The position numbers and the translations under genes are program-made. A stretch of DNA of 64,000 bases from Thraustochytrium sp. TN22. Lineage: Eukaryota > Sar > Bigyra > Thraustochytrida > Thraustochytriidae. The notes below the pieces were generated by a model, which saw only the letters and a program-made list of their open reading frames with translations, did not search any database and was not told where the DNA came from. The stretch covers positions 194,416-258,415 of the forward strand of contig JABLUY010000005.1 of NCBI GenBank assembly GCA_013306675.1, written 5' to 3'. Numbering within the stretch: position 1 is the stretch's first letter; each line of letters starts with the position of its first letter. Below, piece after piece: positions 1-53,944 of the stretch.

Positions 1-1505
1 TCGTCCGAGATTGGCACGACCAGCGCTCTAAAGTACCTGTACCTTTTGGACAACAGCAACTTGCAGAGAATCGCAGCCGAAATTTCACGCCTCACCGACC
101 TGAAAGAACTGTACGTTGCTCTCACCATGAGACCGATCCTCGCGCTCTGCAAAGATTTGAGCTAACCACGCTGCTCCACAGCGAGATCGACTCCTGCGCG
201 CTGACGGCCTTGCCGGACGCCATCGGAAACCTGACGGCGCTCACCAAGCTGACCTTGCGCGACAATTATTTGACCTCGCTCCCGGACTCCATTACCAACC
301 TCGTCTCGCTCACCATGCTCGATCTTCGCTCGAACTACATCACGGATCTTCCGGAGAACATCGTTGACACTCTCAGCAACCTCGAGGATATAGAGTTGCT
401 GGGCGAGCAGCTGCAGTGGCCAACGGAGTCGCCAACGGAGTCGCCCACGGAGTCGCCCACGGAGTCGCCCACGGAGTCGCCAACGGAGTCGCCAACGGAG
501 TCGCCCACGGAGTCACCCACGGAGTCGCCAGCGATCGTGGCACCAACGGAGTCGCCGATATCATCGGTCGAAACAACGCAAAGCAAGTGCAGTCCCGGCC
601 CAGAGATCAATGGCGCGTGCGCCTTCGTCACAGACTCGGATGGTTCTGCGGCCTCAGCACTCCTCGTCATTTGCTTCCTGCTGCCCATGCCGGGGATACT
701 GACCCTGATTATCCTCTTGCGCTCCCGGGGTCTGCACGTGCTCCCGAACATGGTGCTGTCCGCAGGCGACCTTGCCAGCGACCTTTACTACGTGGTTCAG
801 GGTCTCTACGTGAGCCAGGGGCTCATGCTCGTGAGCCTTTTGCTGGCCCTTCGCCTCGTCCCTTTCGCCGCCTGGCTGATGCGGAACCCAATGCGCGGGG
901 AGCCCAACCCGAGGATGGGAACTGTGGCGATCCGTATTCTCTCGGTGACTGGCCATTGCGCACGCGTCGCGGCCGGCATCGTCCTCTATAACCTCAGGTT
1001 GCTCCCGTTCCGGCGACCGAAGCAGCTCGCTCTACTTGACCCAGACGTGATACCAGCCTATGGGCGCCTGTGGCAAACAGTGACCAGGTATGACCCGGTT
1101 GTTATTGCAAAGACTACTGTGGCCATTGCGGTCGATGTGGACAGCGAGCAGCAGCCTCAGATCAGAGCCGAGCTGTACGAGGACGACCAGGACTATGGAG
1201 AGGAGCTGGTCATCGCACGAAAGCAGGAGGAGCCGCGGTTTGACGATGAGGCTTTTCGCATCATGTGCAAGTGGGATGCTGCTGCTGTGAGCGTGCCACA
1301 GCTCCTCATCCAGTGCGTCAATGGCGTGCTCCTGGGCGAGGATGCCCTCACAAGCCATGCCTACCAGGTGACGGTCACCTTTTCTGTCCTCTTCATGGTC
1401 TCAACTTGTGCGACAGTCTGGGCGGAACGCCGGTCGGCACCGGAGTCTTCCGACGATGTGGAGGGGACCCCGCAAGTTGGATCACTCGTGTCGTCAAGGT
1501 CGTAA
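1..1505 (+). CDS. LRR ectodomain protein with XKR-like multi-pass membrane module (5' partial, two visible exons)
   Basis: The gene is cut by the left window edge. The visible exons are <1..110 and 182..1505, with a 71 nt GT-AG intron between them. The splice restores a normal leucine-rich repeat (LKEL followed by EIDSCALTALP). About 477 residues are visible. They begin with some five LRRs of the LxxLxLxxNxLxxLP plant/protist type, followed by a stalk of nine PTES units plus one separated unit. A cysteine-bearing D-S-D-G-S motif comes next, then a membrane module of about four hydrophobic segments. The module holds SAGDLASDLYYVVQG, a LRLLPF segment, and SVPQLLIQCVNG near the C-terminus. It matches the C-terminal half of the two neighbouring genes, which suggests one paralogous family. 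The GDLxSD and SxPQxxxQ motifs resemble XK-related scramblase-like proteins; this is inference, and transport activity is unproven. The C-terminus ends earlier than in the paralogs and lacks their GRSxxxxPVG tail. Confidence 0.75.
   Translation, partial: VRDWHDQRSKVPVPFGQQQLAENRSRNFTPHRPERTVRCSHHETDPRALQRFELTTLLHSEIDSCALTALPDAIGNLTALTKLTLRDNYLTSLPDSITNLVSLTMLDLRSNYITDLPENIVDTLSNLEDIELLGEQLQWPTESPTESPTESPTESPTESPTESPTESPTESPTESPAIVAPTESPISSVETTQSKCSPGPEINGACAFVTDSDGSAASALLVICFLLPMPGILTLIILLRSRGLHVLPNMVLSAGDLASDLYYVVQGLYVSQGLMLVSLLLALRLVPFAAWLMRNPMRGEPNPRMGTVAIRILSVTGHCARVAAGIVLYNLRLLPFRRPKQLALLDPDVIPAYGRLWQTVTRYDPVVIAKTTVAIAVDVDSEQQPQIRAELYEDDQDYGEELVIARKQEEPRFDDEAFRIMCKWDAAAVSVPQLLIQCVNGVLLGEDALTSHAYQVTVTFSVLFMVSTCATVWAERRSAPESSDDVEGTPQVGSLVSSRS
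420..554 (+). repeat. 12-bp minisatellite encoding PTES repeats
   Basis: Nine tandem 12-bp units of the form CCMACGGAGTCR run in frame inside the LRR gene. A 15-bp interruption follows, then a tenth unit. They encode a Pro/Thr/Glu/Ser stalk between the LRRs and the membrane module. The only variation is at wobble positions, so the array expanded recently or is under protein-level selection. The length is probably polymorphic between strains. Confidence 0.9.
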
Positions 1506-4161
1506 AGGTCCAATCAGGCGATCAGATCGCGACGACTTGTTGCGAACGATTTGCTGCGACGGCCCATGTTCATGCTGTGTGCTCCCAACAAGAGCCATGT
1601 CCTTACACCTTTTCAAGTTCTCCGCTGGTGAGTGCGCTCTTCACACGAAGCACCCGTCGTCGCCAATGCCGAGGCCCATGGCACGCGCGCGCCTGCCGAA
1701 GCTCGGCAGGGCGCGATTTCATGCGACCAGTGGTGATTGCCGCAAACGTTGGGCATGCGCCAGATCATGCTCCGGTTCGTGCAATCGGTACGTACGAGAC
1801 GTTCTTCGCCAAGAGGCGACCGATCTTCCGAGCTGCCGCCACCCAGGCTTGGGGGAAACCGCAGTCCGCCGGAGAATATGCGTTCATGCAGCGAAGCCAT
1901 GCTGCGACCCGTGTGCATCACGTGCGTCGCTCGTTCCAGCGTCGCTAGCTAGGAAGTAGGCTCTTTGCCCGTGTAAGCGATACTCCTAACAAGTGATGAA
2001 GCACTGATCCAGGTGAATCGGTGAAAGATGGAGAGGTCTTAGAAACGCAAGAAAGCCCCGCCTCCGCGCACGCCGAGGTGGCCAGGCGAGGAACGGCGTG
2101 ATACGGGTTGAGATGTAGCCGAGAGCTGGAAAGCCAGGTCGACAGAGTTGCGAGTCTGTTGTGCGGCGCAGGACGGCGCGGTGCCAGACTGTATGTTGCA
2201 AGGCTTACGCAGTGGATGCTGCCTACCGGTAGGACTTTGTACAGGGTACAAATTGATGAGCGCCTTGGTTGGCGCAGAGCTGGTCGGGGAGCAGCTCGTG
2301 GATCTGTGCGATCAGGCGCTGGGAACCTTCTCGGCAGCGTGTGAAGTATTTGGTGTCGAGCTAGGTCTCGATGAGATTTTGCCACTTGCCCGGAGTCGCC
2401 CTGAAGTCGCCCGAGCTGTGCGCGTCCGGCAGGCCGGGCATCCAGGCGTCGTTCTTGTTGAAGTTCCGCCTTCGGATCCTGCCGCACGCCGTCCCTTGAT
2501 ACCACCGCACGAAACGAATTTTTGAGTCGAAGTGGTTGTTGAGTCGAAGGGGTTGTTGATGCTCAGCGGGAGCTGCTTGGCGGGAGATGCTCGGCGGAAG
2601 TGCAGTGATAGGTCTTGCAGCGCGGGCCTCCGGGTCAGATTGCCCCCATGCGGCGATCCTGTGGGACTGCGATGCAAAACGAGCGTTGCTAATTTGTAAG
2701 CCCAAAAAATGGTGCTACACCGTGGCAAGCCCGCCTTGAGCCGCCGCGCTTTGTCGAAGGCGGCGTGGACAGCTGAGCCTCGAGTTGCGGCCAGCGGGCA
2801 AATTCTGGCTCGGGACTTCCATTGTTGGTGCGGGCGATAAAGCGCGCCGTGGCGGCGCTCGCGTACGAGGCTCAGCGCAACCACAATTGGCAAAACGACG
2901 AGCCGCAAAGAGAGTCCATGAAGGCCATGTGCGCTCCGTTCGCCCTTGTATGCGCGCGCCGTGGGGACTCGGAGGAGCTGGCAGGCTAGCGGTTAGCAAC
3001 TGACTGCCTCGGGCGAGGTGCGAGGTACCAAGCGTGTTGGCAAGCGGGGTGATGAGGAGCATCCCTAGTCTGGCACATCGGCGCTCCTCCGCTGCGCCAC
3101 TGGCGGCGCCCGCATTTCTGAGAGTCGTCAGTGAATGCAGTGAATGGACCAGTATTGTTCGGGTACCACTGGCAGCCATAGTCCTTGATTTGGTACCTGG
3201 TACAATAAAAGGGTACCCTGGGTTCACATGACACCGGTACCCGTACTACTGTACCAGGTCAGGTGGAATGCACTGGCATGCGCAGGCACCGTGCGATTTG
3301 GAGACGACTCGGACGCATCGCGAGCCACACCGAACCGACCGTGACTGCGTGACGGCCGCTGTCCGAGTACGAGCGAGTTGACGTCGCTTCAAGTCAGCGT
3401 ACCTCCCCTTTCCATACACTCACAGCCAGGCTGCCAGTGGCAAAATGGAAGTGCCAATGCGGAGCGAGCGTGTCACAGGCCTGCCGCTAGCTCCCCCCCA
3501 GCGTTTTTCGGCACTGCGCAGGGTAAAAAGATCATCTTCTCGAGGTGGGGTTGCGGGAACCGCAGGACGGTGACAGGACGGTGCGTCGTTCGTGTTGTTG
3601 TCTGCTTGACTCAAGGCTTGCCAATGAACTGCTGCTTCCGATCTCAAGGCGCCGAAAAGAGACGCGTCCGCGCTCAGCTGGACTCGGAGCGGCGAGCACA
3701 CTGGCAGTGCCATCTCATTCAGTCACGTGCCAGCGGAAGAACCTGCTATGCCCGCCTATGCCAAGCCCACGACCTAGTCTCACTGGGCTTCCGAGTCCCA
3801 GGCACCAGGAACAACTACCCCAACAGGCTCAGCCCGAGGCAGGCCAGCCCCGCCGCCCAGCGTCGGCCACAATCCGGCTGTGAGGGCCGCAGTGCCCGTC
3901 GCAAGCCTCAGATCATGATTGGTTTGGCGTTCGAGTCGTGGTCGAAGCTAGCTGAGTCCATGCTGGCTGCGCGAGGGCCGGCCCCGGCGGCCGCGGGCTG
4001 CAGTGCAGTCAGGGGAAGCGCGCGAGGGGTCCGCGTCACGCTGGCAGCGGCCAGCTGCCGGCCCACGCGAAGAACGCGAGCAGACTTCGAACGTGCAGTG
4101 CAAGCGCCCGGGCTTCAAGAGGCTCGCGCGGGCGGGGCACCGCAGGCAGCACGGCGGCGCC
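1506..4161. other. Long intergenic region between the two LRR genes
   Basis: No intact gene is visible in these 2.65 kb. The stretch holds one coding-like relic on the minus strand near 2.2-2.5 kb, listed separately. Five GGTACC palindromes sit at 3024, 3162, 3192, 3212 and 3236. An AATAAA hexamer lies near 3203. GCTAGCT palindromes occur at 1944 and 3947. Base composition is less GC-rich than in the flanking genes. The right end should contain the promoter of the LRR gene that starts at 4162. Confidence 0.6.
2223..2520 (-). pseudogene. Coding-like relic of unidentified protein
   Basis: On the minus strand about 95 codons read like real protein with strongly G/C-ending codons. They include the segments GRIRRRNFNKNDAWMPGLPD and LIAQIHELLPDQLCANQG. 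The reading is broken at least once, so it is unlikely to be an active gene as it stands. No convincing start or flanking exons were found. I do not recognise the family. It could be a decayed host gene or a fragment of a mobile element, and no terminal repeats are visible to decide. Confidence 0.35.
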
Positions 4162-6718
4162 ATGGGCGTGGACCGGCGCAAGGGCGCCGGCGCTGGCACG
4201 GCGCTGCTGGCCGCGACGGTGGGGTGGGTGATGATGGCACTCGCAGGGTCCGCGCTGCTTGCGGTCCCTGCGGCAGCCGAGTGCGTGTGCTCGGGCGAGG
4301 GATCGCCGACAACGAGGATCACGTGCAGCTCGTGCGAGGGCCAGGTGCCGGATCTCACGGCGTACCTCGGCGACGTATCAACAGTAACCTTCCTCGACAT
4401 CAGTTCCAATCAACTCACAAGCCTGCCCGACGTCATGACCGCCTTCACGGCGCTCACAAGCCTCAACATGAGGAGTAACTCGCTCGTCGAGCTCCCTGAC
4501 TGGTTCACGACCATGAAATCGCTCACTTATCTCTTACTGGCGGGGAACCTCCTCACGACACTCCCTGAAGATATCGGGTCGCTCAATCGGCTCAGCGCCC
4601 TGGAATTGCGGCAGAATGCGCTCTCGGCCCTGCCAGCCTCCATCCGAGAGCTGCGCGACATGACGAACCTTATGGTGACCAGCAACCAGCTCGGCAGCCT
4701 TCCGAATAGCTTTTGCGTGGGCGGCAGGTGGCGGGGACTGTATGCAGGCAACAATAAACTCAGGAGCCTCGATGAGGTTATTCAAGAATGCACGTCGCTG
4801 ACGCTGGTCTCCCTGGAAAACAATCTCTTCACCTCTCCCCCCAAGCTGCCGGCGAGCGTGCAGACTCTGCGCTTGGAAGGCAATCTCCTCGAGGACTTCT
4901 ACAATCTGGAATCCCTTACCAACCTCAGGAGCTTGGACCTCTCCTCGAACAGCCTCTACTTCGTCATGGACCAGATCAGTGCGGCCAGTCGGCTGACCAA
5001 CCTGAATCTCGCCTCCAATGCACGGCTTCGAGGAATCTCTGAAACGGTCGATGCCCTCACCGCCCTCACCAGTCTGTAAGTGCTTCGCGCGCGCTCCCAG
5101 CGTGCTCGTCTCTCACAGGCATGAAATCTAACCTCGGATGCGAGCCAGCGACCTCCACAGCGGTGGTCTTACGAGACTACCCACGAGCATTGGGGCTCTC
5201 ACCAGTCTCACAAACCTTGAGGTCCAATTCAATCGCCTCTCGGAACTTCCCTCCACCATTGGGGCCCTGACGAACTTAATCACCCTCAGGGCCCAATCCA
5301 ACATGCTCACGGCGCTGCCCAACACCATCGGCAATCTCGTCAAGCTCACGGAGCTCAACATTCAGTACAACTTCATCAGCTCGCTCCCGGAAAGCATCAG
5401 CGAGCTCGAAGTTCTCAAGGATCTCGAGCTGCTGGGAGAACAGAGGGAGGCGCCCCCAGCGTCTTCGTCAGCCCCGACCACGACGCACCCGTCACCAGCA
5501 CCGACGGATACCCCCACCAACGTCACGCCATATCCATCGAACAAGCTGACCAGCGTCTGCCCCGCCGGCCCGGAGGACGCCATGAGTATCAACGAGTGCT
5601 TCTTCATCCTGGACGAGGATGGCTCATTCAAAGTCGCGATTATTGTCCTCTGCGTCCTCATGGTGCTGCCAGTGCTCATTGCGCTCGCCTGCCTCGGCTG
5701 GAAAGGCCTCGATCTGGCCCCAGATGTGCTCATGTCTTCCGGCGACCTCGCGAGCGACGTTTACTACCTGGTCGAAGGCCCTTTCTTCACCAAGACCTAC
5801 TTCTACGTGAGCTGTTCCTTTCTCGGCATCCATTGCCTTTCGCTCATCCTTTGGCTGTGCGAGAACCCGCCTCGCTGGACACCACACATGAAAGTCTTGA
5901 AGACTACAGAGCGCACCCTGGTCGCTGGCATTGGCATGTTGCTGTGGTTCTTCATCAGCTTCGTGTTTTACCAACTCAGGCTGCTCCCGTTTCGAGCCTT
6001 CAAGAAGCTCGCCCTTCTCGACCCCGTTGCGTTTGCCCCCTGTGCAAGTGTGTGTCACTCGTGTCGCGGAGGCATGCAGCGCAAACTTGGGCTCGAGAAA
6101 ACATTCCACGCGGATTCACGCCCAACCTCGCAAACCTCGCAGCATGCAGGCCAGGACCCTGCCCTTCCAGATGCAGCTCATGACCCAGGCCCCCAACCTG
6201 CAGCTCAAGACCCACCTTCACTCGCGCCTCAAGACGACGACGAGCCGGAGAGCCAGATCACCAATACTCAGCTCGAAGATGAGCCCTTCGACACCAGAGC
6301 CTTCAACCACATGCGCTGCTGTGAGCTCAGCCTCGAGAGTATTCCGCAATTCGTCATGCAGGTCTTGAACGGCTTCTATCTGGCCGACTATGAGAATTCC
6401 GCTTGGTGGGTCGCCATTGCGTTCTCCTTCTTCCTCATTCTACGCTCTGTGCAGCAGTTGACCTACCATGTATTATACGAGGGTCGGAGTATCTGCGACC
6501 TTCCCGTTGGCATTGACCTGTTCGCGTCGAGATGCTCACGGAATGGTTTCTCGGTGCAAGGAAAGGGCATCGATCAAGACACCCCGGGAACTGCAACCAG
6601 CTCCGCGCAAGAGCGTGGGCCCACCGATCCAGGGTCCCTCCCGGCAGACCCGCCATCCGAAGGACCTGGCACGCCACCACTGCCAGAGCCAATTGGTACT
6701 CGTATCAATGTGACTTGA
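4162..6718 (+). CDS. LRR receptor-like protein with XKR-like membrane module
   Basis: Exons 4162..5075 and 5149..6718 flank a 73 nt GT-AG intron and encode 827 residues. The intron sits in phase 2 inside an LRR, exactly as in the upstream paralog. The acceptor after GCGAGCCAG is preferred because it gives the perfect repeat LTSLDLHSGGLTRLP; a downstream CACAG would shorten the repeat. The chosen ATG has GGCGCCATGG context and is followed by a signal peptide of about 33 residues. About 14 LRRs fill residues 60-410. A short Thr/Pro stalk follows, then the shared module from about residue 452: LDEDGSFKVAI, SSGDLASDVYYLVEG, a LRLLPF segment, FNHMRCCELSLESIPQFVM, and a GRSxxDLPVG tail. The protein should sit at the plasma membrane with LRRs outside. 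The LRRs suggest ligand or partner binding. The module resembles XK-related proteins, by inference. Confidence 0.85.
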
Positions 6719-6739
6719 AAGAACACTGCAAAACTCAGA

Positions 6740-6934
6740 GATCCGGCCATCGATCCCAGAACCTCCAGTCACATGCGCCGGTGGAAACTCGTGCGCGAGA
6801 GCGCACCTCAGATCATGATATACAAAGGCATTCACAACGGCCGAGCGAGGAGTCCCACCTGGATGACTTCCGTTGCCTTCTCCATCTTCTACAACACGCG
6901 GCATGACGCGTTACGCGCAGAAGCTCATCGATAA
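6740..6934 (+). pseudogene. Relic of a fourth XKR-like module
   Basis: One plus-strand frame gives about 64 codons that match the end of the shared membrane module. The visible pieces are an Asp-Pro then a His-Met-Arg, the segment RESAPQIMIYKGIHNG, and a hydrophobic TWMTSVAFSIFYN, ending at a stop codon. Compare FNHMRCCELSLESIPQFVM in the gene ending at 6718 and FNRMRLLEVAVESVPQFSV in the gene ending at 7414. No LRR, stalk or first membrane segments precede it, so it is a fragment. Nucleotide identity to the neighbours is low, so the duplication is old. Confidence 0.55.
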
Positions 6935-7497
6935 CAAGCTCTGAGATTCGCGGAGCTTGAAGTTTCTCGCCCGCCATGAGATGTTCGCGGCGAAGGACCG
7001 ATGGCCCTGTCGCAGCGGGAATCGCTCGCGCGGACGAACGATGCCGTGGAGGAGGGTCCTCGTGCGGAGGAAGCGAGTGCAGAGCCGCGTTTATCATCAA
7101 CCCTTGGTCATCTGGGAGGACACAGATCACCACCACCGCTGATCAATTCATCTTTGTGAGGCTATTCCACATGCGCCGTTGCCGGATGCACGGTCTCAAA
7201 ATCAGAGTCGTCGTCACCGTTCCCATCGTCGTCGCGATCTTCCATCGATAACAAGCTCTGAGATTCGCGGAGCTTGAAGTTCTTCGCCCGCCATGAGATG
7301 TTCGCGGCGAAGGACCGATGGCCCTGTCGCAGCGGGAGTCGCGCGAACGAACGATGCCGAGGAGATGGGCACAGATCACCACCACCGCTGATCGATTCAT
7401 ATTTGTGAGGCTATTATACATGCGCCGTTGCCTGATGAACGGTCTCAAAGTCAGAGTCGTCGTCACCGTTCCCATCGTCGTCCCGATCTTCCGTCTC
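6926..7497. repeat. Tandem duplication of about 317 bp covering the 3' end of the vWA-XKR gene
   Basis: Copy 1 spans about 6926-7242 and copy 2 about 7243-7497. Both begin with ATCGATAACAAGCTCTGAG and both end near GATCTTCC. Copy 2 contains the last ~28 codons and the 3' flank of the minus-strand gene. Copy 1 carries a near-identical duplicate of those codons (an EDRDDDGNGDDDSDFETV tail) with no gene body attached. Copy 2 lacks about 60 bp present in copy 1. The high identity shows a recent event. Confidence 0.85.
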
Positions 7498-9552
7498 ACC
7501 GAGGGCGAGGCGATGGTCCGCCTCAGGCCGGCTGGCGACGTCCTCGAACTTGATCGGTCCAGCGCGCGAGAAAGACGCCGCCTGGGAGCGCGTCAGCGAG
7601 ACGGCGCGCAGGGGCTCGGCAAAGAGCCCGAGGCCAACCGGCATCTCTTCGGGTGAGCGGCCGACCATGCACACGTAGACGATGAGGTGCTGAAGCACGC
7701 GAAAAATGAGGAAACCAGAGAAACCGATGGAGAGCCCCGAGGCGACGCTCCAGCTGTTCATGAGCAGGCCGTTGGCCAGCTGCACGCTGAACTGCGGGAC
7801 ACTCTCGACCGCAACCTCGAGCAGGCGCATGCGGTTGAATGCCGCCGGATCGAAGGGAAGATCGGGCCCGATACGCGAGGTCGCACTCTGCGCGCCCTCC
7901 GCCTCAGGCGGCTCCTCCGGGTCGCGCAACGCAGCGTTGTTCCGCTGCAGCCAGCGGTCAGCCAGACCGCAAAGCGCGCCACTCTCGGGGTCAAGCAAAA
8001 AGACGCGCTTGATGCGCCCAAATGGGAGCACCTTCATGGAGTACAGCACAAAGCCGACCACCCACCACAGCACGCCGGCGCTAAAGGCCGCCATGGTGCG
8101 CTCGGTGCGCAGGAGCACCGCATGGCCCAGATGTAAGCGCACCGGGTTCTCCTTGAGCCAATGCACATACGGGCCGACCGTGACGAGCAGGGATGTGCAA
8201 CTGAGTGCAAAAAGCGCCACGTTGTAGTACGGCTCTTGCGTCAGGTAAAAGATGTCCGTCATGAGGTCACCGGTGGACGCCACCACGTCAAGCGAGATGT
8301 CCAGGCCAACCCAGCCCAGACTTCGCAGCGCTACGAGCACCGGCACGAGGAGGAGCAGGCAGACGGCCAGGACAACCGGCCGCGCGCTCCCGTCGCGGTC
8401 CCACACGAAGTAACACCCCCCGTCGTCGTCTACGTACGCCCCCGAGGGGCACGTCGAAGGCAATGACGAGTCGGCCGAGCCGCTGCCCGTGCTCGCCGAC
8501 TCATTGCCCACCCCCGTCGTCGGTTGCGGCGTGCTGGAATTCGGCCCAGGGTCCGCGGTCGGCGAGACGGCCTGGGTGGGCGCCGAGGTTGCGCGGGTAG
8601 GCGCCGAAGTCGACAGAGCGGTCGGGCTTGGCGTGTCTCCCGCCTTGCTCGGCCTGGCCGTGGGCGCAGCTGTAGGTCTCTGCGACGGCGCCGGCGTGGT
8701 TGGCTTAGGCGTCGGGGCGAGCGTGGGCGCGCTCGTTGGGGAGGTTGGCGCGGCCGTGGGAGCCAAGGAGGGAATGGTGGGCACTGGCGTCGGCTCGACG
8801 CGAATCGGCAGCTCGGGCGTCGGGCTCGCCGACGGCTGCGGCGTGGGCAGATTCACGGTCAGGCCGAGGTCTTGCAGATGCAAGTTGGCCGCGTCGCGGA
8901 AGTCGAGCACGCTGACCGCGCCCAGCTCGCTCGCCAGACCGGACGCCCTGCTCACGTTGAGCGCGACGACAGCCACCCAGGCCTCGGCCAGGATGCTCGC
9001 GGCCGCGTCTTGGAGGTCGTCGCTGCCGGCGTCGCTAAAGCGGCGGTCCGAAAACACCAGTATGCGCGGGTCTCGCTTACTGGAGAGCCAATTCTCCACA
9101 GCCTCCAAGGCGAACTCGCCGCACGCGGGCCCGCTCGGATTGGCCGCGAGGACAATATCGAGGGCGTCCGCGATGGCCTGCGTGCTCCTGGTAGGCTCCA
9201 GCAGTACCAACGGCGCCGTGGTATTCTCGTCGTCATTGCACCGTAGCGCAGTCAGCGAGAGCCGCGCGCCTCGCGCGCTTGCGTCTGCCGCCACGCATCC
9301 GTCCTCCAGGACCTGAAGCGCCGCCTCGATGAAGTCCACGTAGACGCCCGGGCAAGCGGACGACTCCGCGTCGCCCATGACCGCTGCGAGCCCGGCGCAT
9401 TGCGCGGTCTCCTCGGCCGCGCGCTCGCTCAGGTCCAGCACGACATGCAGGTCCACGTCACAGGCCGTCGTCTCCGCGCCGTCGGCCCGCGACACCGCGG
9501 CGGCGGCCATCACAGCCGCCGCGATGCTGGTCATCAGGCCGGCGACCCTCAT
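7414..9552 (-). CDS. vWA-like ectodomain protein with mucin-like stalk and XKR-like membrane module
   Basis: The protein has 712 residues. The start is the ATG giving MRVAGLMTSIAAAVMAAAAV, a clear signal peptide; upstream in-frame codons lack a better ATG. Residues ~30-225 look like a von Willebrand A fold: a DVDLHVVLDLS first strand, later RILVFSDRRFSDAG, and a final VSVLDF strand. The usual metal site D-x-S-x-S reads D-L-S-E-R, so the MIDAS is incomplete. Residues ~235-365 are a Ser/Thr/Pro/Ala stalk with repeated APTxxP units, probably heavily O-glycosylated. The rest is the shared module: VWDRDGSARPVVLAV, STGDLMTDIFYLTQE, a KVLPF segment, FNRMRLLEVAVESVPQFSV, a GRSPEEMPVGLGLF tail, and an acidic C-terminus. 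It is a paralog of the LRR genes with the ectodomain swapped. The vWA call is from pattern only; the shared module is certain. Confidence 0.8.
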   Translation of the reverse strand: MRVAGLMTSIAAAVMAAAAVSRADGAETTACDVDLHVVLDLSERAAEETAQCAGLAAVMGDAESSACPGVYVDFIEAALQVLEDGCVAADASARGARLSLTALRCNDDENTTAPLVLLEPTRSTQAIADALDIVLAANPSGPACGEFALEAVENWLSSKRDPRILVFSDRRFSDAGSDDLQDAAASILAEAWVAVVALNVSRASGLASELGAVSVLDFRDAANLHLQDLGLTVNLPTPQPSASPTPELPIRVEPTPVPTIPSLAPTAAPTSPTSAPTLAPTPKPTTPAPSQRPTAAPTARPSKAGDTPSPTALSTSAPTRATSAPTQAVSPTADPGPNSSTPQPTTGVGNESASTGSGSADSSLPSTCPSGAYVDDDGGCYFVWDRDGSARPVVLAVCLLLLVPVLVALRSLGWVGLDISLDVVASTGDLMTDIFYLTQEPYYNVALFALSCTSLLVTVGPYVHWLKENPVRLHLGHAVLLRTERTMAAFSAGVLWWVVGFVLYSMKVLPFGRIKRVFLLDPESGALCGLADRWLQRNNAALRDPEEPPEAEGAQSATSRIGPDLPFDPAAFNRMRLLEVAVESVPQFSVQLANGLLMNSWSVASGLSIGFSGFLIFRVLQHLIVYVCMVGRSPEEMPVGLGLFAEPLRAVSLTRSQAASFSRAGPIKFEDVASRPEADHRLALGETEDRDDDGNGDDDSDFETVHQATAHV

Positions 9553-10800: not shown

Positions 10801-11619
10801 TTAGTGCAGGCGCGCGTGCTCTGGGACGTCGGCCTCGGAGAGAAAGGGGATGAGTTCCTCGGGTTCGCCCATGTGCAGGCAGTCGTTGCGCAGGTCGATC
10901 AGGGCCTGGTGCTTCTTGAGCATGTCGAGGCCGAGGAGGAGCTCCATCTTCTGCTGGCCGTCAAGCACAGTGAAACTGCAGCCGTAAATCTGCGTGCCGA
11001 TCTTGATGGGCGCGAGGTGCACGCGGCCGATGATGACTGCCTGGCCCACGCCGACGGCGACACCCTGGAAGCGGCGGTCCACAAGACGCATGATGCCGCA
11101 GCGCTCGGCGCACTCGCGCGACATGACGGTGGTCTGCGCGCCTGAGTCCACAAAGGTCTTGACAGGCACGCCGTTGACCTCAGCGTCAATGTAGAGCATG
11201 AGCACACTGGCGAAAGACTCCGGCGACTCCTCCATGGCGCGCTCCAGGTTCTCATTGACGTTCTGCGCGGCAATCTGCTGCTCGATCAGCGCCTGCTGCT
11301 CCATGTCCTGCCTGTTGAAGCGCGGCATTGACCTCCGCAGCAGCGCGCCCAGGCCGCCGCCGCCGCCGCTACGGCGCGCGCCGGCCCTCGCGCCGGGGTC
11401 CACCACGCGCAGCGCCATGAGGTCATCGTCCGCGACACCCACATCGGTCAGCACGGCCTCGTCCGGGAGCACCTCGCCGGCGAAGCTCAGCTCCAGCTGT
11501 TCCGGCGGCACGCCCAGCTCCGCGCTCGCGACGGCCTTGAGGTCCTCCACCTGCGCGCCCGCGCCCACCTCGGCGCGCACCATGGCGTCCGAGTCCGTCA
11601 CCGCCAGCGTCACGTGCAT
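10801..11619 (-). CDS. DDI1: Ddi1-type ubiquitin-like / aspartic protease shuttle protein
   Basis: The protein has 272 residues. Residues 1-73 form a ubiquitin-like domain. A glycine-rich linker and a helical segment follow (FNRQDMEQQALIEQQIAAQN). A retropepsin-fold domain then occupies residues ~138-262, with the catalytic motif TFVDSGAQTT (Asp158) and a second-half LLLGLDMLKKHQALIDL. Ddi1 proteins are cytosolic and nuclear, and they act with the proteasome on heavily ubiquitinated substrates; in animals they activate NFE2L1. This is a normal cellular gene, not a viral one. The protein stops soon after the protease domain, so there is no C-terminal UBA domain. That is also the case in several other lineages. 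The ATG at 11619 is directly followed by the UBL first strand. Confidence 0.95.
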   Translation of the reverse strand: MHVTLAVTDSDAMVRAEVGAGAQVEDLKAVASAELGVPPEQLELSFAGEVLPDEAVLTDVGVADDDLMALRVVDPGARAGARRSGGGGGLGALLRRSMPRFNRQDMEQQALIEQQIAAQNVNENLERAMEESPESFASVLMLYIDAEVNGVPVKTFVDSGAQTTVMSRECAERCGIMRLVDRRFQGVAVGVGQAVIIGRVHLAPIKIGTQIYGCSFTVLDGQQKMELLLGLDMLKKHQALIDLRNDCLHMGEPEELIPFLSEADVPEHARLH

Positions 11620-12388: not shown

Positions 12389-15300
12389 TTAGGAGAGAAG
12401 GACAGCGTGAAGGTCGGCGAGAGCAGCCCGCGAAGCGGCGGCCGCAGCATCGCGTGTAGCGGCGCCGGGCTTCGTGGTCGTAGCGGAGGAGAACTTGGCC
12501 CACTTGCGATCCATCATGGCATCCATGTCGGCGAGCGCAAACCCCATCTGCACTAGCTGAGACCACTTCTGAGATTGGAGCACCCAGGCTCGCCAGAGCC
12601 CGCGCCAGGGGCACTCGACCGGGCTCTTCTCATCGTGGTCGGCGTCCGTGTCCTCTTTGGTTTCGGCGCGCGGCTCGTCAACGAGCACGCCAGTGCGGCG
12701 CCAGCAACTAGCGGCGCGAGCGAGAGTGCGGCCCACACGGTCCAGGTGCTCACCCACCACCTCATCCGGAACCGGTGCGCCCTTGCCGAGAAGCAAGGCC
12801 CGAAAGGCCGCCAGCGCCGCGTCGTGGTCCGCCGCCAGCGCCACTCTGGCCTCGATGGCGGCCGCAGACGCAGACGATGCGCGCCGCGCCTCCTCTTCCT
12901 CCGCGAGCGCCGCCAGAGCGCCGCTCAGTGCCCGCGCGAAGACTTGCGCACCCGGCAGAAGAAACATATCAAAGGACGGGTTCTCCGACAGCGGCACGCG
13001 CGGGTCGCGCAGCCGCACGACCGCGGCCTGCAACAGGTTGCCGAGGTGCACGACATGCTCATCCTCGCGCCCGGCGAACGCACCGCGATCCTCGTCCTCG
13101 TTGTCCTCGTCCTCCGCCTCGTCATGAGCATCGTCGCGAAAGCGGACTCGATACACGAGCGCCCCGTCACCTGCGGCGCGCACGCAGCGCTCGCGTACCA
13201 GCGAGACAGTCGACTTGACCATGCACAAGGAGGTAACCCGGTACCACAGCGAGCCGCGGTGCCAGGTCGCGCGCAGGTCCCCGTCGGGCGGCGCATTCAT
13301 GCAGACGAGGTCGCCCACGCGCAGGCCTGCAGGCCGTGGCTCGCTGCCGCTGACAGGGGCGCCCTTGCCGTCGACTGGCACCATGGTGGCCGTCTCGAGG
13401 CCGTACTCGGCCAGGACGACCTCGTCCGTGGCTAGTGCCGGGTTCTGCAGCACAACGGGCCAGAGGCGGGCCAGACGCCGCCGCACCGCCACGGCCGCCG
13501 CGGCAGCCCCGCTCGCCTCCAGCCACCGCGCGCGCAGCTTCTCGCTCGTCTGCATTCGGCGAAACTTGCGCACCTCAGCCACCAAGAGCGCCTCGTCCTC
13601 GGCCGCAAGCCGCGCCGCGAACCAGCGCGTACCGGGGACGAACTTGCGCCACTGCTCAGCACACAGCGTGCGCACGTGGATGGCCAGCTTGTGCTGGTCG
13701 CGCAGCCTGCCCGTGAGCTGGCCACTGCCACTGCCGCTGCTGCCGCCCTTGAGCAGAATCCGCGCGAGCAGGTCCGGCAGCGCGTACGCGTAGACCACCG
13801 CGCCGTCCCGGGCCACCACGCGCTGGCACGCACACTCCAGGCGCTTCGCCTTGGCGCCAGCGCTCGCCTCGGGCCCTGCCACAGCCAGCTCGCCGCTGCC
13901 GCGTTCCAAGAGGACCGCAAGGCTCTCGGGGGCTAGCCGCCCGCCCGCCCGCGCTGCGGGTTCGCGCATCAGAAAGAGCAGCTGGCCCTCCCCAAGGGCC
14001 TGACTCCCGGCGCCTTCCGCTTCCAGCGCCAGCACGCCCTTGGCCGGCACACGCATGGTGCAGCGCACGAAGCCGAGCAGCGGCTTGGCGAGTGCCGCCT
14101 CCACGCCGCGTGCCGTCCAGTCGGACCACACGCCCAGGAGAGACCGTGGCTGCGCATGGTGCACGGCGTGCAGAGCGCGTCCGACGAGCAGCCAGCGCTC
14201 GAGGCCATCGCCACCCAGGCAGTGCGTTGCGAAGTCGAGCGCGCCCACGGCCTGCTCCACGCGCTGCTCCACCTTGACCGCATCCTCCCACGCGAGGAAT
14301 TCACGCTTTGACTGCGCAGCGCGCCGCGCTTCGGCCGCCTCCTGTGCGGCCAGCTGCGCGTCCACCTGCTTGAGCTCCGCTTCAGCCGCCTGGACGTTCT
14401 TCCACGGGTTCTGGAGGTCCTGCACGCGCGCGGCGTGTACCACCTGGGACGGCGGGCCCCTGGACGTCAGCGCGTGCATCAGCGGTCCGCCCGCCGGGAG
14501 CGACTCGCGCTGGCCGTGCTCGCCGCCCACGTACCGCAGGGGCAGCGCCCGGTCCGGCGCGAGCGCCGCGGCGACGCTCGATGGCGCCCCCGCCGGCCTC
14601 GGGAAGGGGGTCCTGCGCTCCCCGCCCGGCCCGCCCGCCTCGCGCAGCTGCCGCACAGCGTCGCCCGTTGCCACCTGCGTGCGCTGCTTGAGGTCCTTCC
14701 ATTGCGCGAAGTCGCGCGCCGCCTGCGCTTTGTGCTCCGCGGCGCGCTGCGCCGCCTCGGCGTTCTTCGCGTCCTGGTCCTCGCGTGCCCACGCCCGCAG
14801 CATCTGCAGCGCCGCCGCGGACGTCACCGGCACCTCGGGCTCGTCCTTCTCCTGGACCTGCCGGTCCTCCTCGTACTCCTGTTCCTCCTCCACGCGCCGC
14901 AGGAGCCGCGCCCACTCGTCGCGGCAGACCTTCTTGTACAGCGCATTCTGTAAGCGCACCTCGGGCGCCAGCGGCACGTCCGGCACGATGTGCGCGCGCG
15001 CAAAGTCGCCGCTCTGCTCGCGCCGCGACGACTTGAGCACGCGCCGCTCGCAGTGCCGGTGTGTAAAGCACAGGCCGTCGAACTCCACATCCTCCTCCTC
15101 CGAGCCGGCGCCCGCGTTCACGCAGCTTGCCGGGTCCAGGATGTGCAGCTTGCGCGCAAGCGCCGCGCTCACGCGCGTCGCGTGCAGCTCCTTGTTGCTC
15201 GCGATGGTCCAGTCGACCCAAGCACGCTCCAGCGGCGCCAGCGCCTGGCCGCGATGCATGGCGCCCGCCTCGCATCCCAGCTTGGCGCCCTCCAGCTGCA

Positions 15301-18300
15301 CGCGGGCTAGCGCCAGCCCCACGCGCCGCCACGCGCTGTCCTCGTGTGCGCGCGACCGGAAACGCAAGGGCTTGAGCCGCAGTTCCGACACCTTTTGCGC
15401 CCACTGCGGCGTGCTCACCTCCGCCGGTGAAGGCGCGCGCACCACCTTGTCCGTCCGCTCCGATGCGTAGCCCTCGTAGAGCGCCAGCACCAGCTTCGTC
15501 GCACGCTCCACGTCCCCCTTGTACGCCGCGATACGTTGGCCCAGATCGCTACCCTCGCCGCCGCTGCCGCCGCCACCGCCACCGCGCCGTGTCCCAAGAC
15601 CGCCTGCCACCTGCTGGCGCCGGTCGCGTTCCAGCGCCAGGGCGAAGTCTGCACGCTGTTTGCGCGCCGCCTCCAGCTCCTCCATCGCCTCCGCCAGCGC
15701 AGCGGACTCCACGCGGTCCGCCGCTGTCGTCGCCGCCGCCGAGACCGCTGCATTTTCTGCACCCCGCGTCCCGCCGCGTCCCGCCGCGCCCCTGCCCCGG
15801 ACGGAGCGCCGCCGCCCTGAGCCAGCATTCCACCCGCGTTCCAGCTCCTTCTCGCGCGCAAGCTTCTCCATCTGCCGCGCATGGGCCGCCGCCGCACGCA
15901 TGTCCTGCTGCAGCGCAACGCGCGACTCCTGAATCTCCGCTCGGATCGCCTCGATCTCCTCGTACTGCGCCACCTGCTCGCGCGTTGCGCCGCCCGTCTG
16001 CAGCGCCATCGCCACCGAGGCCCGACGCGAGGACGATGACGACAGCGCGTCCGCCGGTCCGGGCGCCCAGGCCTCCTCGGTGGGCATTTCCAGCAGCCGT
16101 TGCTGCAGCCGCTCCATCGCCTCGTGGTGCTGCCGCATCAGCTGCTGTTGGAACTCGCGCTGCTGCCCAATCTCCTGCTGCAGCGTCTGCACAAGCTCCT
16201 CCTGCCGGGCCTGCGACCGAGATGCCGCTACGGCGCGCGACTGTCGCCGCCGCTCCTCTAGGATTCGCGTCTCCTGCGCCTTGCGCTCCTTGCGCATGCG
16301 CAGCTGGTCCGTACGCTGTTCCTCGCGCAGCTTCGCCAGCTCCTGCCGCAGAAGCTGCAGCGCCGACTGAGACGGCGCGCTCTGGGCAGCTCGAGCTGCG
16401 CGCCGCGCACGCGGTGACGCTGCGACGCGGCCCACCAGCACGTGCACTTGCGACCAGTGCACGGTGCTGTCCACCTCTCCATTCTCAAAGGCTACCTCTA
16501 CCGTCTCGTCGCTGTTCACCGCCACAACCGTGCCTTTGGCGAGTGCCGTGAGATCCACCGTCTCCGCCTCCACGTCGCGGTTCACCAGCACCGAATCAGC
16601 CTGCGCGGCCTCCTCCAGAGATCGCGCCTCGCGAAGGGTCAGCGCCCCAGCACTAGGGCGCTTCGTCTGCGTCGTCGTCAAGTGCGGGCCGCTTGCACCG
16701 CGTTTTGACCTTTTGCTGCTGCGGCGGTCTCCCGAGAGATCTTCCAACGTCACAGCCGCGTGGACGACGCTGCTCCCCTTCTTCTTCTTCTTCTTCTTCT
16801 TCTTCTCCTCCTCCTCCACCCCCACCCCCACCTCCTCCTCCTCCTCCTCCTCCTCCTCGTCCTCCTCATTCATTCTCAGCTCGAACCCGGCCTCCGCGGT
16901 TTGCACTGAGTCTGCGTCAACCTTGGTCGATGTGGAGTCCACCTCGGGCATTGCAACCTGCATAAACTCGAGCTGGCAGTCCTGCTCCACATCACCATCG
17001 TCATACGCAACGAAGAAGGTGCCGTCGTCGTTGACATTCATGATGCGACCAGTGTACAGGTCCTCTTCTGCAGGCGTCTGTGTGCTTCGATTAAAGTTCA
17101 CGCGCACCATGGAGCCCGTCTGCAGAAGCGAATTTTCCACATCCTTGGCCCAAACATACCTGGTGGATTCCGTGGGCAGCACAGACGTTTCGAGTTGTTT
17201 GGACGACGCAGGCGTTTCAAGCCGCTCGGATGGTTTGCACGCAGGTAGTTCGCTCGCCAGGGGCTCGATCTTTTCAGCTGGCGACTCGGGCTTTTCGGGG
17301 GCCGGCGGCTTGTCGGCTGCTGGCGGCGCTTCCACGGGCGTCTCCGAATTTTTCGCAGGAGGCTTTGCGGCTGGTTCAGGCTTCTCCATAAACTTCTGCG
17401 CTTCATCCACGGCAACCTTGATAAAGTCGGCCTTGCAGTCCTTCTCAATATCCCCATCATCGTAGGCGATGGCAAAGGTGCCGTCAGCGTTGACCGCGTC
17501 AATCTTGCCAAGGTAAAAGTCTGCGGCGCGAGGACGACTCGACTCTCGGTTGAAGTTGACGTTGACGCGAGCGCCGGCACGCAGAATGCCGGCGGGTGCC
17601 TCCTTGGCCCATACGAACGCGGGTTCTGGCTGCGGCGCGCCAGCCGCTGCGCCTTCTTCCGTGAACTGGCCCTGGTGCGTTGCGCCGCCGTCGGATTCGG
17701 TGATTGCAACAGCGTCCGGTGCGACCGGGTTGACGCACCCGCCAGGCCCTGCGATGCCATCGTGAGTCCAGGTTGAGACCAGCTGGCCACCCTGAGCCTC
17801 TTCAAGACGGTAGTGCGGGTCCGGAACGCCGTAGCCGTCGCACCCGTTCTTGTTGAAGTCGAAGATAAGCCTCCAGTGGTTATCGCGCGGGTCCAGCTTA
17901 GCCTTGGCAAAGTGCTCGCCCAGGCCCGCGTATGCGCCGTTGAAAGGGCGAAAGACCAAATCGGTGCTCGTCTCAATAACCGGGTCCACATTTGAGAAGA
18001 GATTGAACGTGCAGTTGCGGCAGTCGCGCAGGCGCAGCTGCCGGCAGGCGATGGTGAATTCAGTGTCCGAACAGTCGCGCACAAAGACGGAGCTCTCGCA
18101 CGGCCCGATGAAGACCTTGCTCCGCGTTACCTTGTCCACCTGCACCTGTGTGGACCAGCACAGCACACGCACGGTGCAATCGTCGAGGGTGTGCAGGTCA
18201 AACGGCTGGCCCTCGACTGACCCGGGCGTCTTGAGGAGCGACTCGTGGTCACCCTGGACGTTCTTGAAGCAAAAGTACGTCTCGTACATGTATTGCTTGT

Positions 18301-21300
18301 AAGCCCCGCGGTCCGCAAATGTCTTGCCGTCGGGCGCCATAAAGGCAGCTTTCTGACCGGCGGCGTCGGTCTTGCGAGTCACGATGGAAACGATGGCCTC
18401 CTTGGGCACGGAGTTGACCGCCTCGCCATCGTCGAAGATGACCTTAAAAGACCCGTCTTTGGCGTTGCGGCGCTTCACCGTGCCGCGGTACGGCTGCTTC
18501 CAGGTCGCCAGCTGCGCCATGACGACGTCGCCCGGCGCCGGCTCGACGGAGGCGTCTGTGGAGTCGAGTTTGGGCTCGGATCTTGTCGTGGACGATGCCG
18601 GCTTGGACGTCGACTCCGACGCGGCGCACTCCTGCTCGTCGTTCAGAAAGGCCAGTAGATCCTCATCGTTGGCCACGTCCCCGGCGCGTCGTGGACTCAG
18701 CTCATCCACCAGATCCTCCGGTGAGACGGACTGCACGATTTCCCCATCGTCAAATTCCACGTGCAGACTTCCATCCGCGTTTACAGCGCGAATCGTCCCC
18801 GAGTAGGCCTCCTTCCACTCCTTGAGGCGCGCCCGCACGCGCTCACCAGGGACCAGACGCGCCTCTTCGCTGGGCAGGACCTCCACAATCTCGGCGCGCG
18901 TGACGCGGCTCTGCACCTCGCCATCATCGAAAACTACGCGAAATGTAGCGTCTGCGTTCACTGCAGCAACCGTGCCTGCATAGGCCTGCTTCCAGCTCTC
19001 AAGGCGGGCCATAACACGCCGGCCGAGTTGAGGAGAGCCATCTGCGCCAGAACGCGGCGAGCCGCTTGCACATGAACCAGGCGAGGGGTTCGTACCTTCC
19101 TCTGTAGGCGGCTCCTCACTCTTGATCTCTTCCGGTGAGACGCGCCCCTGCACCTCGCCGTCGTCAAAGACAACCTTGTACGTGCCGTCTCCATTGCCGG
19201 CCTCGATGACTCCGGCGTAGGCCTGCTTCCAGCCCTTGAGCTTGGCCGTAATGCGCGTGCCTGGCAGCAGAGTAGCAGCTTCACTGGCCCGGTCAACGCA
19301 TGCCTCTGCGTCGCACACCTCCTCCACCATGGCTGGCTCGACCTCTTCCTGCACCTCGCCGTCTTCGAAGACAACTCGGTATGTGCCTTTCGGGTTGATG
19401 CTGTCGATGACACCGGCGTAGGCCTTCTTCCAGCCCTTGAGCTTGGCCTTGACACGCGTACCTGGCTGCAAAGAAGCATCGCGACTCGCCTGCTTGGCGC
19501 CCGGCTCTGATGTACCGACCTCCTCAATCTCGTTGGACTCGACCTTTTCCTGCACCTCGCCGTCGTCGAAGACCACCTTGTATGTGCCGTCCGGGTTTGC
19601 CTTTTCAACCACACCGGGATACGCCTGCTTCCAGCCATTCAGCTTGGCTTTGACACGCGTGCCCGGCTGCAGAGAAGCATCGTCACTCGCCTGCTCAGCG
19701 CTTGCCTCTGCGTCGCTGATCTCCTCGATCATGGTTGGCTCGACCTCTTCGTGCACCTCGCCGTCGTCGAAGACCACCTTGTATGTGCCGTCCGGGTTTG
19801 CCTTTTCAACCACACCGGGATACGCCTGCTTCCAGCCATTCAGCTTGGCTTTGACACGCGCGCCCGGCTGCAGAGAAGCATCGCCACTCGCCTGCTCAGC
19901 GCTTGCCTCTGCGTCGCTGATCTCCTCGATCATGGTTGGCTCGACCTCTTCGTGCACCTCGCCGTCGTCGAAGACCACCTTGTATGTGCCGTCCGGGTTT
20001 GCCTTTTCAACCACACCGGGATACGCCTGCTTCCAGCCACTGAGCTTGGCCTTGACACGCGTGCCCGGCTGCAGAGAAGCATCGCCACTCGCCTGCTCAG
20101 CGCTTGACATTGTTTCGCCGACCTCCTCAATCTCGCCAGACCCCACCCTTTCCTGCACCTCGCCGTCGTCGAAAATCACCTTGTATGTGCCATCTGGATT
20201 GACCTCCTCAAGCACACCGGAGTAAGCCTGCTTCCAACCCTCAAGCTTGGCCTTGACACGCGTGCCTGGCTGCAGCAGAGCATCGGCATCTTTGCTGCCG
20301 TCGGGCTGGGCCTCCAGGACCGTGCAGATCTCATCCGCCTGCACATCATCAATCACCTCACCGTCGTCAAAGGTCACCTCGTAGACCTGACTGGGCTCCA
20401 CGATGCGCGTGACCTTGCCCCCGTAGGCCTTTTTCCAACCCGCGACCTTGGCCTCCACGCGCATGCCCACATCGATGGCTGGTCGACGGCTAGCGGCAAC
20501 GGGCCGCGGCGAAGGAGACTTGCCCGCGACGGGCTTTGGCTCTGAAAGTATCTCAGTAGGCAAAACTGAGTCGACGATCTCGCCGTCGTCGAAGCGAACT
20601 TTAAGCGAGCCGTCGGCGTTGGTGGCTACAACGACGCCCTCGTACGCCTGCTTCCAGCCGGTGATCTGTGCCTTGACGCGGTCCCCACGCGCAAAGCGAG
20701 CACTCTTGGCCTCCACCTCCAGGAGCTCAATGTCCGCTGCAGCAACGCGTGGTTGTATCTCGCCATCGTCGAAGTGAACCTCGTACTCATCACCTCGACG
20801 CTTGGCAATCTTGCCGGTGTAGGCTTCCTTCCAGCCCGGGATCTTGGCGCGCACGCGCTGACCGACGTCGAAGGTGGCGGCTGGCCGTGCCGCAGCGCTG
20901 GCTAGGACCTCCACGATCTCGCTGCGCTGCACGTCGTCGATCACCTCGCCGTCGTCGAACTTGACCTCGAAGACCTTGTCGGCCTCAACGACACGTGCGA
21001 CGATACCCGCGTAGGGCTTTTTCCAGCCTGCCACGCGTGCAAGGACGCGCGCGCCTGCGTCGACACGCTCGCCAGCCGCGCGCTTGGGCGGCACGTCCTC
21101 GTCCCCGTCCCCGTCCTCATCGGAGGCCGGCGCCGAGCCGAGGACTTCGAGCACCTCCTCAAAGCGGACCTCGTCCACGACCTCTCCGTCATCAAAGACG
21201 ACGCGACAGGTCTCTGCGTCCTTGTCCACGCTGTCTACGCGGCCTTCGTAGCCCTGCTTCCAGCCTTTGATCTTCGCTACGACTTTGTCCTGCGGGCGCG

Positions 21301-21403: not shown

Positions 21404-21938
21404 GGTGGTGGGCGGTGGCGCGGGCGCGCTCGCGCTCGCCCCCCGCCTCGCCTCTCTCTCGCCTCGCGCCACCTGCACTGCCGCGACGCAGGCTCGGTGC
21501 TGGGACGGGACTCGACGAGCCCGACTCGACTCGGCCTCCTCTCGTTCGCTACTAGCTGGCTGAGGTAGCCGTTGAGTCGAGGCCGGGCCCTGGCTGGGCC
21601 CATAGTCCCTGACAGTAAGTGCGGCGGCACTGCCAAAGGAGCCCGCCCGGCCGACGCCGCGTTCTCCACGCCGGCCGTGCTACACGAAACGGCGCCCCAA
21701 GGTGTGGTCGACCGCCCTCAGGCTCTGCCTTGGCGGCGGCACCGGGCCGTACCTCTAAAACTATGAAGTTCCCTGCAGTAGCACGGCGACGGTCAGCACG
21801 GCTCGACTCGGTCAGCACGGCTCGACTCAGGCTCCGGGCTGGGCTGGGCTGGGCTGATCGTGACTCAATGACTCACATCATTTGATCTGATCTCACTGTC
21901 AGTGAACGTTCTTTAGGCCTATAGAATTTGGTTCGTGA
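21404..21938. other. Intergenic region upstream of the giant gene
   Basis: These 535 bases lie between the start of the Tudor/TBCC gene and the stop of AP-4 epsilon, both on the minus strand. They contain a doubled GTCAGCACGGCTCGACTCG motif near 21790-21830 and a GGGCT run near 21838-21856. No gene is visible. Confidence 0.6.
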
Positions 21939-47188: not shown

Positions 47189-47692
47189 CTCCAGGGACTG
47201 GCCATCCGCTTCGTCCAACCATGCATGCAGCAGACGGGCGAGCGGCATCCACTGATGAAATAGACACAGAACAAACAAAACGAAACAACTTGAAACCCAC
47301 TCTCCCACCCACCGTGACCCACACGCCAAGAAGATTGTGAAATGAGCGACGCAGACAGTGACCGGCTCATTCGCGTGCCGCTTCTCTGGCTCGGACTTCC
47401 GCCACATCGTGATCGTGACTGCTCAGTAGCACCTGCTGCTGTCCGAGTCCGAGACACGCCACGGGTCATCTGTAGGTTGTACTATACCAGTGACAGTGCC
47501 AGGGGCTGAGTGGCCCCGAATCTGTCAGCCCGGCCGCGCCCGGCCGGCGGCGGCTGCTTCTCCGTCGAAGTCACTGCAGGCGCCAACGACCTAACGGTGG
47601 CGGGCGAACCTAACGACCGCGGCGCGCGACGCGAGCAGCTCAAATCGCTCGAGGCGCTCAAATCGCTCTCGAGAGAGAGAGAGAGCAAGAAG
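47189..47692. other. Upstream region of DNA polymerase epsilon
   Basis: These 504 bases hold the 3' flank of tRNase Z and the presumed promoter of the polymerase gene. A GAGAGAGAGAGAGAG run lies at about 47670-47685, just before the ATG at 47693. Upstream in-frame codons exist but no ATG, so the coding start is at 47693. Confidence 0.55.
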
Positions 47693-47702
47693 ATGTTCAG
47701 GC

Positions 47703-47739
<37 letters not shown>

Positions 47740-53700: not shown

Positions 53701-53944
53701 GGCAAACCCGACCTACGATGAGGAGCTTCGTGCCTACGAGGCTCGCCAAGCTCGCCGTCTTGAGCGTGAGCAGCAGCGGAACGAGCCTGTGCCCGCCAAA
53801 GCGACCGTCACGGCAGCTGCAAAGAAGACGAAGAAGACGGACAAGACGTTGGCACCTCCTCAAAAGAAGCCTCTGGACAAGGACAGCGACGAGAACGAAG
53901 ACGAAGACGAAGAAGAGGACATGGCCCAGGTCGACGACGAGAAC

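Follow-up and report, generated by a model that had tools for sequence, protein, structure and literature searches.

A tandemly expanded protein family of Thraustochytrium sp. TN22 with LRR or vWA-like ectodomains and a module resembling half of an XK-related scramblase

What do three neighbouring genes of Thraustochytrium sp. TN22 encode, whose products share one C-terminal membrane module and differ in their outer domains? The genes lie at the start of a 64,000-nucleotide stretch of DNA, hereafter called the window (assembly GCA_013306675.1, contig JABLUY010000005.1, positions 194,416 to 258,415 of the forward strand), and are referred to as gene 1 (<1-1505, + strand), gene 2 (4162-6718, + strand) and gene 3 (9552-7414, - strand). 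The original prediction likened the module to XK-related (XKR) proteins. In animals, XKR scramblases expose phosphatidylserine in dying cells under intracellular control by caspases, phosphorylation and an XRCC4 fragment. In this study, sequence comparison indicated that the modules are very probably homologous to the N-terminal half (ND) of XKR proteins; the C-terminal half (CD) was not detected.

Relationship of the module to XK-related proteins

Pairwise comparison bore out the shared C-terminal module proposed for the three genes (E 1.8e-17 to 3.7e-58). The modules of genes 2 and 3 showed 35% identity over 310 aligned amino acids (aa; E 3.0e-49/3.7e-58), those of genes 1 and 2 28-29% (E 3.6e-31/1.4e-27), and those of genes 1 and 3 29-30% (E 1.8e-17/8.9e-23). 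However, these are only three members of a larger family: in the assembly (37.9 Mb, 453 contigs), searches with the modules of genes 2 and 3 returned an identical set of at least 11 loci, 11 being a lower bound. The members are numbered M1 to M11, genes 1 to 3 being M1 to M3. Six of them, including the window genes, lie within 17 kb on the contig of the window (C409, 185,723-202,845); two are on C119, and C333, C71 and C88 carry one each. According to their third transmembrane helix (TM3), seven members, genes 2 and 3 included, are termed canonical and four degenerate (M1, M5, M6 and M11).

Two of the 11 modules exceeded the cut-off (24.8 bits) of the Pfam XK-related family (PF09815). The module on C71 scored 28.6 bits (E 8.9e-7; module residues 53-255 on profile positions 16-179 of 337) and that on C333 28.2 bits (E 1.2e-6); scored as whole open reading frames (ORFs), the two reached 26.0 and 27.9 bits. 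Four more modules matched below the cut-off, among them gene 3 (E 0.02). Thus, six of the seven canonical members and none of the four degenerate ones matched at E <=1, and five modules, including those of genes 1 and 2, gave no XK-related match at E 1. The next-best Pfam family in any module had an E of 0.0049. DuoxA (PF10204), found at E 0.016 in gene 3 only, was rejected as below its cut-off, as were other weak Pfam matches, each seen in one or two members and none over cut-off.

Reference sequences of XKR8, XKR9 and XKR4 from the PDB were then aligned with family profiles by hhalign. The 11-member profile matched them with a probability of 92 (E 6.1e-7) and the profile of the seven canonical members with a probability of 94 (E 1.1e-7). 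The scores of 54-59 compare with a maximum of 26.8 in 540 column shuffles (four sets of 60 and one of 300) and with 12.9 for the reversed profile. The signal did not reside in the two motifs alone: the score was 53 with the TM1 motif masked and 39 with the TM3 motif masked, and with both masked a weak signal remained (score 33, probability 24; 41 against the ND alone) that exceeded all 540 shuffles. The degenerate profile matched the canonical one at E 2.7e-42. Together with the Pfam matches, these results support the predicted XKR relationship. The two predicted motifs fared differently: ES-PQ fell on XKR TM3 in all alignments, and GDLxSD fell on TM1 in a register that varied.

Several observations weigh against the relationship, and some of them would suit an unrelated multi-pass membrane family whose two motifs are XKR-like by chance or convergence. 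When the PDB was searched by HMMER with the whole of gene 3, with one member or with either of two module profiles, XKR chains were absent from the matches up to E 10. Single members scored weakly in hhalign (gene 1, 13; gene 2, 19; gene 3, 25; best, 41), the window genes being within the shuffle range, and the four degenerate members by themselves scored 18.5 (probability 0.5, E 0.12). A whole-genome search with PF09815 at E 10 listed two places, both of them family members and both below the cut-off. AlphaFold2 gave unusable models for the module with three window rows and for the vWA-like domain of gene 3 alone (predicted local distance difference test, 41.1 and 41.6). The TM1 register is also unsettled. 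The D-L-x-x-D of the module equals D26-L-G-T-D30 of XKR8 and coincides with it in one profile alignment, with six residues fewer behind; HMMER places it four residues off for M7 and M8 and in yet another register for M4 and M9, and two XKR alignments start behind it. Since the HMMER alignments disagree, D26 and D30 were withdrawn as settled equivalents and are paired with the module by motif only. The DuoxA match of gene 3 would fit an unrelated family as well. On the other hand, such a family would explain neither the Pfam matches over cut-off nor a profile score that stays above every shuffle with both motifs masked, nor would it be expected to show TM1 to TM4 in XKR order with the alignment restricted to the ND. 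We consider it very improbable.

Anatomy of the half-size module and of the three genes

The alignment to XKR proteins is confined to one half. With the border of the ND set by us at XKR8 residues 1-190, the ND scored 49 (11 members) and 54 (seven canonical members) in hhalign, and the CD scored 15 and 12, which is chance-like. A hidden Markov model (HMM) of the XKR ND, run on six-frame translations of the window and of six loci, listed nine of the 11 family members and nothing else at E <=5, with E below 0.001 for three members (best 6.6e-7); an HMM of the XKR CD listed nothing there. The profile alignment begins at XKR8 D26 (36 after realignment) and stops at about residue 197. The module therefore corresponds to the ND, comprising TM1, TM2, the half-inserted IH1, TM3 with its PQ kink, and TM4, and the TM helices are colinear with those of the ND. 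Of the XKR layout of two repeats and eight TM helices, the ND alone aligns.

Ahead of the XKR-like part, all 11 members have a strong hydrophobic helix (TM0), which is preceded by a pair of cysteines read from the translations. A hydropathy scan missed TM3 in all seven canonical members, where it is too polar, and detected it in all four degenerate ones; TM1 of the canonical members was missed too, save for a segment straddling its end in M7 and M8. TM3 is reported in passages of PMC8298096 to escape hydropathy analysis in XKR9 likewise. An NxT sequon occurs in the predicted outer TM1-TM2 loop of four members, and a long loop before TM3 is predicted to be cytosolic.

The positions originally given for the three genes hold, but gene 1 extends upstream and genes 1 and 2 each contain an intron. 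Gene 1 starts upstream of the window (locus L021); its frame and GT-AG borders were read directly. An exon of leucine-rich repeats (LRRs; 1-110) is followed by an intron (111-181) and an exon (182-1505) encoding LRRs, a Pro/Thr/Glu/Ser stalk and the module; the two-cysteine segment before the membrane is CSPGPEINGACAF (588-626), and the TM1 motif is GDLASDLYY (765-791). Gene 2 (827 aa) consists of exons 4162-5075 and 5149-6718 around a GT-AG intron (5076-5148). Its product has a signal-peptide-like hydrophobic start, an LRR ectodomain, a Pro/Thr/Ser (P/T/S) stalk, TM0 and the half-XKR module, with the two-cysteine segment CPAGPEDAMSINECFF at 5558-5605, TM0 at 5639-5695 (hydropathy 3.26) and the TM1-like GDLASDVYY at 5741-5767, whose DLASD may be compared with the DLGTD of XKR8 (residues 26-30) with the above reservation on register. 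Gene 3, on the - strand, has the same layout with a vWA-like ectodomain: the two-cysteine segment CPSGAYVDDDGGCYF lies at 8407-8451, TM0 at 8320-8376 (hydropathy 2.68) and the TM1-like GDLMTDIFY at 8245-8271, and MPVGLGLF (7621-7644) marks the end of the XKR profile alignment at about XKR8 residue 197, behind TM4. Gene 3 thus deviates from the predicted shared motifs GDLxSDxYY and LxLLPF, the latter reading KVLPF.

The introns of genes 1 and 2 each interrupt a Leu codon after base 2, where a strand of an LRR begins. Such a shared phase would make it easier for LRR units to exchange exons.

Conserved TM3 residues, two clades and the state of the array

The TM3 columns, set by us at the motif, are ungapped in all four XKR alignments. 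R134, E137, E141, P144 and Q145 of XKR8 are identical in seven of the 11 members, including gene 2 (ELSLESIPQFVMQ, 6323-6361, with E137, E141 and the PQ kink placed by the XKR profile alignments) and gene 3 (EVAVESVPQFSVQ, 7780-7818, supported by its Pfam match below cut-off). In the degenerate members, R134 is replaced by Cys, E137 by Asp, and E141 by Val or Ala; M11 has also lost P144. Gene 1, with DAAAVSVPQLLIQ at 1275-1313, has C, D and V at the equivalents of R134, E137 and E141, so that the shared motif ExxxESxPQxxxQ holds for genes 2 and 3 but not for gene 1. D-L-x-x-D on TM1 is present in the seven canonical members and in M1; M11 has D-F-x-x-D, and M5 and M6 lack the second Asp, so that the acidic pair is kept in nine of the 11.

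These positions may bear on function. As reported in parts of PMC8500837, alanine mutants of XKR8 at D26, D30, K134, E137, E141 and R183 showed reduced scrambling, and a hydrophilic path was proposed along helices 1, 2, 4 and 5. In XKR4, activating extracellular Ca2+ is described as bound by D123, D127 and E310 with T307, S311 and S339 (PMC10495444, in part). Counterparts of E310, S311 and S339 are found in the seven canonical members, and those of D123 and D127 by motif; T307 has no counterpart in these members. In gene 2, the TM4 segment FSFFLILR (6422-6445) holds the Ser aligned to XKR8 S170 and XKR4 S339.

Canonical and degenerate members form two clades (support 100/100). The six canonical modules other than gene 3 are only 38-57% identical to that of gene 3, yet their TM3 residues are identical. 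Simple pairwise counts gave ratios of non-synonymous to synonymous substitution (dN/dS) of 0.20 (95% 0.13-0.30) for the canonical pair M7/M8, and of 0.52 (95% 0.35-0.79) and 0.77 (95% 0.49-1.28) for the degenerate pairs M1/M11 and M5/M6. For M2/M4 (0.41) and M3/M9 (0.32), silent sites are near saturation. The clade with charge loss on TM3, to which gene 1 belongs, and a module made up of the XKR ND with one additional TM helix were unforeseen in the original prediction, which is only partly supported.

Could the family instead be a decaying tandem array, in which truncated XKR pseudogenes have fused to LRR genes without function? The dN/dS of M5/M6 and the loss of the Pro of PQ in M11 would agree with this, as would the remnant of one more module copy, a decayed TM3-TM4 fragment at about 6728-6898 (+ strand). 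This fragment was found by family HMMs (E 5e-7 and 3.2e-7), ranks next after the three genes among 1273 translated segments from the six window frames, and was left out of the 11-member count. But each of the 11 modules is one open frame, the dN/dS values of M7/M8, M2/M4 and M3/M9 are low (the latter two with the reservation just given), and the TM3 residues have stayed identical in seven divergent members. A functionless array is therefore most improbable.

The decayed fragment lies directly behind the stop of gene 2 and reads RESAPQ, compared with LESIPQ in gene 2. An earlier assignment of the overlapping match at C409:201032-201316 (window 6617-6901, one internal TGA, E 4.1e-4) to the tail of gene 2 was rejected, as the family HMM shows the decayed fragment. 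M11 (locus L025; C88, 3989-5527, - strand) has 81% identity to the gene 1 module and is possibly decaying. No relative was found in the viral and prokaryote contig collections scanned; given their make-up, this says little on other eukaryotes. The literature matches listed included no LRR- or vWA-XKR fusion, half-size XKR or labyrinthulomycete XKR.

Ectodomains and a possible receptor function

The LRRs predicted for two of the genes were confirmed by Pfam (LRR_8/LRR_4) in genes 1 and 2. In the whole family, eight of the 11 ORFs match Pfam LRR families at E <=0.01, seven of them over the curated cut-off and M10 below it. Of the remaining three, M7 has LRRs recognisable by eye only, M8 is truncated at a contig end, and gene 3 (M3), with no Pfam LRR match at E 1, carries the vWA-like domain (8848-9462, - strand, starting VVLDLSER). 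The prediction of a vWA-like domain on a stalk in gene 3 has indirect support. The domain itself has no direct Pfam match, but two further ORFs in this genome match it (E 9.2e-8 and 1.6e-7), one of which carries VWA_2 over cut-off (E 1.8e-8) and the other no vWA match. A profile of the three ORFs listed 16 PDB sequences at E <=1, all vWA-bearing ANTXR2/ANTXR1 (best 4.4e-4), and the P/T/S stalk is present. Because the domain starts VVLDLSER, its metal-ion-dependent adhesion site (MIDAS, DxSxS) is degenerate. In the tree, gene 3 groups with M7/M8 (support 94/92) within a five-member clade (100/99) that includes the LRR-bearing M9 and M10; a long-branch warning applies to M2 and M10 and does not concern gene 3. 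Since the vWA-like gene is nested among LRR genes, the predicted swapping of ectodomains is supported, and the simplest history is likely a single event in which, on the stalk side of the module, a vWA domain took the place of the LRRs.

The family shares features with several known systems. LRR receptors of plants and animals have a kinase or TIR domain as output module. They resemble the LRR members here in hydrophobic start, LRR ectodomain, stalk and membrane part; the output in this family is a multi-pass half-XKR. ANTXR2 (CMG2) crosses the membrane with a single TM. It has a vWA domain like the outer domain of gene 3 and was the best PDB match of the three-ORF profile, whereas gene 3 has a degenerate MIDAS start and a multi-pass membrane module. 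With XKR8/9/4 the modules share the ND helix order, R-x2-E-x3-E-x2-P-Q on TM3, the TM4 Ser, the long pre-TM3 loop and, with unsettled register, D-x3-D on TM1; the undetected CD, the additional TM0 and the LRR or vWA-like ectodomain set them apart. In XKR8-basigin, according to parts of PMC8500837, a scramblase core is also joined to a single-pass ectodomain protein, but there the two are separate chains and the ectodomain is immunoglobulin, whereas a single chain carries an LRR or vWA-like domain here.

These comparisons suggest, tentatively and just short of an even balance, that the proteins are type-I-like receptors built on an XKR ND without a CD, in which the ectodomain of canonical members gates lipid scrambling. 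Each protein of the tandemly expanded family would consist of a signal peptide, an LRR or, once, vWA-like ectodomain, a P/T/S stalk, the two-cysteine segment, TM0 and the XKR ND. A TM0 running from outside to inside would give the XKR part its normal orientation, with TM1 as in XKR9. Because the path helices 1, 2, 4 and 5 of XKR8 correspond to TM1-TM4, that is the ND, the half module would contain the lipid path. The seven canonical members may assemble as dimers, as the ND and CD of animal XKR proteins are structurally related repeats (XKR9; PMC8298096, in part), and extracellular Ca2+ may bridge TM1 and TM3 as in XKR4. A ligand or contact sensed by the ectodomain could then shift TM0 and open the TM1/TM3 path for local lipid scrambling; this opening step is drawn by analogy with XKR8-basigin. 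The TM3 prerequisites for scrambling would be present in seven of the 11 members, including genes 2 and 3 and excluding gene 1; the degenerate members may act as decoys, as adhesion receptors or as partners that do not scramble.

Some observations weigh against this reading. Scrambling by a half-XKR is hypothetical and the dimer an assumption; XKR8 R183 and the R98-D129 salt bridge have no clear counterpart in the modules by eye, and, in the portion of PMC8298096 concerned, three of nine human XKR members are given as found to scramble in apoptosis. The proteins might instead be receptor or adhesion proteins in which the XKR-derived half anchors them in the membrane, mediates oligomerisation or offers a docking platform on the cytosolic side, for instance for a lipid transfer protein of the VPS13 type, with no scrambling of its own. 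The missing CD, the lack of R183 by eye and the open frames of the four members that lost their TM3 charges would accord with this, and in XK the second of the cytosolic loops is reported to bind VPS13A (PMC9436381, in part), a binding for which the long pre-TM3 loop, if cytosolic, could be suited. A pure anchor, however, would have no need of the path residues on TM3, the D-L-x-x-D of TM1 or the Ser of TM4, all of which seven members keep, and the dN/dS of M7/M8 is tighter than that of the degenerate pairs. We regard an anchor or docking function as possible, though less probable than the gated scramblase.

A bolder version of the gated scramblase would take half-size dimeric XKRs as living counterparts of the single-repeat form that preceded the internal duplication, with canonical and degenerate members, whose genes are neighbours, paired as ND-like and CD-like, ectodomains gating a Ca2+-dependent lipid path, and scrambling as receptor output. 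This is unlikely. As a CD equivalent, the degenerate clade was rejected: it scored 18.0 against the CD and 18.8 against the ND, both within the shuffle range, so that a canonical/degenerate heterodimer is without sequence support.

Other genes were noted by eye and by profile. In the window, 10801-11619 (- strand) is Ddi1-like by eye, with a ubiquitin-like start and a retropepsin-like DSGAQTTV site; 12389-21478 (- strand) is a 3029-aa ORF with about 12 tandem repeats of about 65 aa (GxRVxAKLxGWKQAYxGVVxxxNPDGTYKVVFDDGEV) that are Tudor/Agenet-like by eye; and 47510-55420 (+ strand) is a 2636-aa open frame whose translation resembles, by eye, the catalytic subunit of DNA polymerase epsilon. Elsewhere, a 3044-aa ORF (L043-L045; C124:26703-35603, - strand) exceeds the cut-off for the polyunsaturated fatty acid synthase PfaA (2539.7 bits), which none of 14 control genomes reached, and is adjoined on the opposite strand by a 2083-aa ORF with synthase-like matches. 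Such synthase genes are typical of thraustochytrids.

In sum, if the gated-scramblase reading is true, the family would be a natural minimal scramblase, in which the path-bearing half of an XKR protein lies under an extracellular recognition domain. A lipid path formed by the ND alone would become testable, with the degenerate sister clade as a built-in negative control, and lipid scrambling would be the output of a receptor.

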